Program-made: the position numbers and the translations under genes
Shown here: one piece after another, positions 22,153-22,239 of the stretch
Layout: every line of letters starts with the position of its first letter
Numbering within the stretch: the stretch's first letter is position 1
Notes under the pieces: model-generated
Database searches by the model: none
Seen by the model: the letters and a program-made list of their open reading frames with translations, nothing else
Told to the model about the DNA's origin: nothing
NCBI RefSeq assembly: GCF_001746755.1
Contig: NZ_MCGG01000002.1
Span: forward strand, 62,001-126,000
Direction of reading: 5' to 3'
Source of the DNA: Magnetovibrio blakemorei
GTDB taxonomy: Bacteria > Pseudomonadota > Alphaproteobacteria > Rhodospirillales > Magnetovibrionaceae
Length of the DNA: 64,000 nucleotides

Positions 22153-22239
22153 GAATCGCCGTCAAGGAATTTAATGGAATCAATATGTTACAGCAGACTC
22201 TTAGAGCTATATGTTGAGTCTCAGGATTCCTCGAGACTC
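22153..22239. promoter_or_regulatory. cluster of six GANTC sites upstream of ccrM
   Basis: GAATC at 22153 and 22177, GACTC at 22196, GAGTC at 22216, GATTC at 22225 and GACTC at 22235. The four nearest ccrM are intergenic or abut the rnhB stop codon; the last two are in the final rnhB codons. A random sequence has about one GANTC per 256 bp. Methylation-sensitive autoregulation of ccrM is known in Caulobacter, and this arrangement is consistent with it. Confidence 0.75.

Follow-up and report, generated by a model that had tools for sequence, protein, structure and literature searches.

Gene content and GANTC sites upstream of ccrM

The window, a 64-kb stretch of the Magnetovibrio blakemorei genome, carries on its minus strand rnhB followed by ccrM, and the interval between the two genes, together with the end of rnhB, holds six GANTC sites (boxes A and B below belong to a predicted NrdR-type operator):

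21051–22130, minus strand: ccrM, GANTC adenine methyltransferase, 359 aa, N6_N4_Mtase and RAMA domains (Pfam, NCBIfam)
22153–22157, no strand: GANTC in the spacer of the predicted −35/−10 elements, about −25 from the predicted start (position and conservation)
22177–22181, no strand: GANTC within the element that stands 11 bp before the predicted −35 (position)
22196–22200, no strand: GANTC between the predicted operator and promoter, about −70 from the ATG, less conserved
22216–22220, no strand: GANTC that includes the conserved base pair at the end of the box B core
22225–22229, no strand: GANTC at the operator dyad, inside rnhB
22235–22239, no strand: GANTC inside rnhB that includes the conserved base pair at the end of the box A core
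22221–22856, minus strand: rnhB (RNase HII), the upstream gene, whose last codons carry box A and two GANTC

The ccrM product has the features of its class, namely an N6_N4 methylase domain (PF01555, 1.4e-69), a C-terminal RAMA domain (PF18755, 5.2e-16) and rnhB as a neighbouring gene; its best NCBIfam match is NF050803 (CcrM) at 630 bits, under the model's 830-bit cut-off, and its GANTC specificity is assigned by homology. Upstream of rnhB, a 180-aa open frame (22924–23466, minus strand) has no Pfam or NCBIfam match at E 0.001. The M. blakemorei genome also encodes GcrA and NrdR, the latter scoring 179.5 bits against a cut-off of 124.65 and carrying the Zn ribbon, the ATP cone and residues D15/R17, which are said in excerpts of PMC9110341 to give DNA specificity. 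Because nrdR is found in 53 of 60 relatives' genomes, its presence proves little and has no power as a test.

The six sites, which begin at 22153, 22177, 22196, 22216, 22225 and 22235, fall within 87 bp, as the first-pass annotation had reported; two of them (22225 and 22235) do lie within the 3′ end of rnhB, and the site at 22216–22220 abuts its stop codon. The enrichment claimed there also stands, but not the figure of about 0.3 sites expected per 87 bp, which assumed uniform base composition: at the rate observed in 387,329 bp of the genome (an 11% sample with 508 GANTC, or 1.31 per kb) only 0.11 sites are expected, and the Poisson probability of at least six is about 2e-9 per 87-bp interval. 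GANTC is scarce overall, with 94 copies in the window against a mean of 221 in dinucleotide shuffles (less than half), and the ccrM cluster is the densest group in the 387 kb, which elsewhere holds at most three sites per 87 bp.

Conservation was followed in 130 ccrM loci (16 of the family, 74 of the order and 40 of other orders). These comprise 50 full loci from 60 relatives, ten genomes having been dropped because ccrM was missing, weakly matched or divided between contigs; 40 further loci of the order, one per genus absent from the earlier set; and 40 loci chosen, for the most part among the higher scores, from the 139 genomes of the class that gave a match. A separate set of 79 named ccrM loci is, judging by the names, largely from Rhodobacteraceae. 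In relatives, GANTC recurs at about −109, −99, −90, −70, −51 and −27 from the ATG, and many loci outside the family have an additional copy at about −17; the offset positions of L012 and L013 in this comparison reflect a misassigned ccrM start. Conservation in relatives, the check that the first-pass annotation had itself proposed, thus holds for the family and a large part of the order.

A predicted GcrA-type promoter next to ccrM

The part of the cluster nearest to ccrM coincides with the following elements:

22137–22142, minus strand: predicted −10 element CATCTT, 17-bp spacer (inferred from conserved CA and T columns)
22160–22165, minus strand: predicted −35 element TTGACG (conservation)
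22177–22190, minus strand: TAACATATTGATTC element, 11 bp upstream of the −35 (conservation of TAAnnnnTTGAWTC)

The arrangement TTGAC-N1-5-GANTC precedes ccrM in 90 of the 130 loci (family 13/16, order 50/74, other orders 27/40) and in 71 of the 79 named, largely Rhodobacteraceae loci, against 4/130 on the opposite strand; in 66 of the 90 loci anchored on it, the gap between TTGAC and GANTC is 3. The N of this spacer site is evenly spread (26 G, 26 C, 20 A, 18 T), which we take as a mark of selection for GANTC itself. A second GANTC lies 11 bp beyond the spacer site in 31 anchored loci of the order, 20 of the class and none of the family, its final C being the first base of the predicted −10. 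With that element at 22137–22142 and the ATG at 22130, the ccrM transcript is likely to be leaderless and to start at about the ATG. A generic consensus scan of 22050–22400 reported zero promoters, because the predicted −10 is weak.

Judged by sequence conservation, the proximal module plausibly resembles a GcrA/σ70-type methylated promoter with a GANTC between −35 and −10. Excerpts of PMC7403470 describe the recruitment of RNA polymerase by GcrA to methylated promoters, and those of PMC4287350 place GANTC at −29 of ctrA P1 and −24 of podJ P2 in Caulobacter. As in such promoters, the window's ccrM has a site in the −35/−10 spacer, at about −25; unlike them, its relatives often add a second GANTC across the −10.

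The conserved form of the 22177–22190 element is TAANNNNTTGAWTC, and TAAnnnnTTGAWTC occurs in 57 of the 90 anchored loci. The element fits what we take to be the IHF consensus, YAANNNNTTGATW, found in 46/90; since this consensus was picked after the sequences had been viewed, an IHF site is noted here and not adopted. Control by CtrA or DnaA was considered and set aside, strict CtrA sites (TTAA-N7-TTAA or TTAACCAT) and strict DnaA sites each being found in 0/16 family ccrM loci.

The Caulobacter ccrM promoter, which holds two GANTC, shares with the present one the placement of such sites at ccrM's own promoter; the present one differs in having six of them, an NrdR-type operator and, across 16 family loci, no strict CtrA site. 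The earlier description of this locus as a denser Caulobacter ccrM promoter is therefore too simple, as three of the sites fall within the NrdR-type operator. According to excerpts of PMC2877005 and PMC4287350, Caulobacter ccrM is under CtrA control; the former also counts CcrM sites before alphaproteobacterial cell-cycle genes and, in the same excerpts, holds that methylation control cannot be derived from such counts. NrdR is absent from its text.

A predicted NrdR operator at the end of rnhB

The distal part of the cluster overlaps a pair of palindromic boxes:

22204–22219, minus strand: NrdR-type box B, 16 bp, core CAACATATAG at 22207–22216 (core 8/8)
22236–22251, minus strand: NrdR-type box A, 16 bp, core CAAGATATTG at 22239–22248 (core 8/8)

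The cores lie 32 bp apart, which leaves a 16-bp spacer between the 16-bp boxes, and each is palindromic with C and G 9 bp apart and a central AT. Excerpts of the literature describe NrdR sites as palindromic 16-bp boxes, typically 15–16 bp apart (PMC12051234), with conserved G–C pairs spaced 9 bp within a box and 31 bp from box to box (PMC9110341) and AT at the box centre (PMC12176259); the E. coli nrdHIEF and nrdDG operators, as far as the same excerpts describe them (PMC9110341, PMC12051234, PMC12176259), have the same boxes and a 15–16 bp spacer. The operator described here differs from these in preceding methyltransferase and cell-cycle regulator genes and not RNR (ribonucleotide reductase) genes, in having bases in common with GANTC and in lying upstream of, not across, the predicted promoter.

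Scans employed the core CWANATNTWG, which we take to represent the NrdR box; in E. coli, the 31-bp pairs of nrdH and nrdD are the only ones that match it at 16/16. Upstream of ccrM, pairs scoring at least 15/16 at 31 or 32 bp are present in 47/130 loci, against a mean of 0.50 loci (maximum 4) at other spacings; a looser threshold of 14/16 lets in false pairs, other spacings then averaging 3.67/130 loci each. Paired boxes at ccrM are seen in 18 of 27 families and absent in nine, and they occur in only 11 of the 79 named loci. Random 330-bp segments of the genome contained a pair in 6 of 3000 cases, including segments over the ccrM and gcrA operators. The 387 kb of M. blakemorei hold only three pairs of at least 15/16, at ccrM, at gcrA and at 28233–28274. 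This third pair (15/16, 32 bp) precedes by about 60 bp the start of a 616-aa protein whose sequence suggests a lytic transglycosylase, and may be a chance occurrence.

Across six genomes of the genus, 20 places match at 32 bp with at most one mismatch: ccrM in 6/6 (all exact), gcrA in 6/6, one before nrdJ and seven elsewhere; the reversed pattern gave a single place in one genome. Exact 32-bp pairs in the 60 genomes number 34 (17 at ccrM, seven at gcrA, three at RNR genes and seven elsewhere, as allotted by comparison with the ccrM, gcrA and RNR locus sets), the reversed pattern giving none. The search at 31 bp is less specific, since 12 of its 14 exact places in the 60 genomes lie elsewhere, the other two being at one ccrM and one rnhB 3′ end; in the genus, this spacing alone yielded two one-mismatch places, none at ccrM or gcrA and both in genomes and on contigs with RNR genes. 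The rnhB pair, at about position 115 of L350 (genome G054), is on a contig that stops before ccrM. Exact 31-bp pairs also precede mraZ-like genes in two families (L351, identified by Pfam, and L346, by likeness, from genomes G033 and G052), mraZ being the head of the division gene cluster.

The same operator type at gcrA and ribonucleotide reductase genes

Upstream DNA was usable in 52 of 55 genomes with gcrA, one GcrA-like match being taken from each. The pair precedes gcrA at 14/16 or better in 33 of the 52 and at 15/16 or better in 24, against a mean of 0.12 (maximum 1) for other spacings at the latter threshold, and is found in 15 of 28 families and absent in 13. Among the 25 families examined at both genes, 12 have paired boxes at both, six at ccrM only, none at gcrA only and seven at neither (hypergeometric P of about 0.004, uncorrected for kinship).

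The RNR sample consists of 37 loci, including the best 30 matches of one search, and covers a minority of the nrdJ genes of the wider order. Among the 35 with at least 150 bp of upstream DNA, nine bear the pair at 14/16 or better, namely nrdJ of the genus (5/5), two RNRs of about 1000 aa, one of 677 aa and one truncated gene. It is absent from the other 26, nearly all of the type of about 790 aa, so NrdR would be expected to target only part of the RNRs here.

Excerpts of PMC9110341 describe NrdR as RNR-specific, with topA a noted exception (excerpts of PMC4409342). P. aeruginosa topA, like ccrM here, is a gene outside the RNR set that acts on the state of DNA; the excerpts of PMC4409342 report an NrdR site with one box and activation there, whereas a pair is predicted here. 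Full-text searches of open-licence literature found no paper linking NrdR to ccrM or gcrA. In Acinetobacter, nrdR merely neighbours a methyltransferase gene (PMC10483419, excerpts), and the excerpts of PMC2500167 have nothing on such a link. Deletion of nrdR in Caulobacter alters soft-agar spreading, which its authors ascribe to dNTP levels; the excerpts mention neither ccrM nor gcrA (PMC12186491).

GANTC sites within the operator and the codons of rnhB

In the window, the centres of the three operator sites lie 9.5, 0.5 and 9.5 bp from the dyad, and in each box the conserved G/C falls within a GANTC. Of the 16 family operators, 14 carry a GANTC at each inner box edge that takes in the core's conserved end base, and 13 contain three sites. 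The density of GANTC in ccrM operators, counted on pairs admitted at the looser 14/16 threshold, reaches 67 per kb in the family and 35.6 per kb in the order, versus 0.7 per kb in gcrA operators (one site across 33 operators). Among the 42 order loci with a pair, nine (for instance L043, L046, L059 and L070) have no GANTC within it.

For the two sites inside rnhB, the first-pass annotation had left a choice between selection and coincidence, and the rnhB codons and their intergenic counterparts favour the former. In the codons under box A, at the end of rnhB in 12 family loci, which are related and hence not independent, isoleucine is encoded by ATA in 8/8 cases (the other four loci have methionine) and serine by AGT in 12/12, against a background in 234 non-overlapping genes of 5.8% of isoleucine codons for ATA and 9.1% of serine codons for AGT. 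Moreover, in L012–L015, where rnhB stops earlier, the element is intergenic, 20–23 bp outside the gene. These rare codons and intergenic copies, together with the density relative to gcrA, make GANTC appear to be selected within the ccrM operator in particular.

Interpretation of the cluster and its alternatives

Taken together, we give roughly two chances in three to the reading that the 87-bp cluster is composed of two modules, a GcrA-type promoter and a predicted NrdR operator, both of which would be read through methylation. Were it instead solely a device for methylation-sensitive self-control, Caulobacter-like but denser, the boxes would amount to protein-free flank. The density and conservation of GANTC agree with this, as do its far greater density in the ccrM than in the gcrA operator and the view, in excerpts of PMC3973325, that Caulobacter ccrM is most probably regulated by GANTC methylation; but self-control on its own is unlikely, because the 31/32-bp spacing is kept in those order loci (9/42) that have no GANTC inside the pair, because the pair at gcrA (33/52 loci) is nearly free of GANTC (1 in 33 operators) and because the pair matches E. 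coli NrdR operators. The conservation of GANTC might also be a by-product of overlapping protein sites (the NrdR boxes, the IHF-like element and the −10), as excerpts of PMC7987155 propose for GANTC at LexA sites. The restricted N of the −51 site (T or A in 64/70) and of the −10 site (C or A in 50/51) is what such an overlap would produce, yet the gcrA operators have the same boxes and a single GANTC in 33, and the even use of N at the spacer site points the same way, so that we regard a by-product as quite unlikely.

As for the boxes, another regulator could use them, with the same spacing, at both ccrM and gcrA. They stand farther from the predicted promoter than is usual for NrdR, and the two exact pairs before mraZ-like genes would also suit a different protein; the core, the C and G 9 bp apart, the central AT and the 15–16 bp spacer nevertheless match the published NrdR site, and the same pattern stands before nrdJ in the same genomes, which leaves a different regulator very unlikely. 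Action of the inverted repeat in RNA, as an rnhB terminator or an rnhB–ccrM attenuator to which GANTC would be incidental, is highly improbable: the minus strand does fold better than shuffles (z −3.97), but no T-run terminator was found and no Rfam family matched, the arms of the box cores pair hardly better within a locus than between loci (7.21 versus 7.09 of 10) and the inner flanks only slightly better (2.27 versus 1.88 of 5), and the predicted promoter lies downstream of the repeat. A terminator or attenuator at 22204–22251 was accordingly rejected on the checks of folding, terminators, Rfam and arm pairing.

A model for nucleotide and methylation control of ccrM

Within the two-module reading, methylation-sensitive self-control of ccrM, as first suggested for this locus, is plausible, because the sites are conserved and the proximal ones are placed as in GcrA-type promoters. 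The best reading of the whole is that NrdR, sensing dATP, controls ccrM and gcrA, with methylation embedded in the ccrM operator. An NrdR tetramer with ATP and dATP would be expected on the two boxes 32 bp apart. When dATP is abundant compared with its consumption, with replication slow or finished, NrdR would bind and ccrM transcription would fall, gcrA being lowered likewise through its separate operator; replication would then drain dATP and release both genes. Passage of the fork would leave the GANTC of operator and promoter hemimethylated, which would alter the recruitment of GcrA and possibly the affinity of NrdR, and bound NrdR could in turn hold CcrM off its own operator. Because operator and GANTC share bases, a mutual effect of methylation and NrdR is likely enough to test.

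The sign of control at ccrM could be the reverse, since NrdR activates topA in P. aeruginosa (excerpts of PMC4409342). At RNR genes, NrdR boxes overlap the polymerase site (excerpts of PMC12176259); at ccrM, 41 bp separate the nearer box core from the predicted −35 downstream of it, so simple steric repression is not obvious.

A bolder version, which we put forward tentatively and hold to be doubtful, is that NrdR as dATP sensor directly sets the GcrA/CcrM module in much of the order and that repressor and methyltransferase compete: NrdR on the un- or hemimethylated operator would keep CcrM off, methylation would keep NrdR off, and nucleotide supply and fork passage would jointly give one pulse of ccrM per cycle. 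If NrdR does act at ccrM and gcrA, its operators would link the epigenetic programme of the cell cycle to the supply of nucleotides and suggest how ccrM might be timed in loci that lack a strict CtrA site upstream. The key bases of the ccrM operator double as CcrM sites, which makes this operator a compact natural system for testing mutual regulation between methylation and a nucleotide-sensing repressor.

Directly downstream of ccrM, the minus strand carries a deoxycytidylate-deaminase-like gene (PF00383, 20399–20881), a homologue of which is present at 17 of the 30 ccrM loci searched, in keeping with the theme of nucleotide supply.
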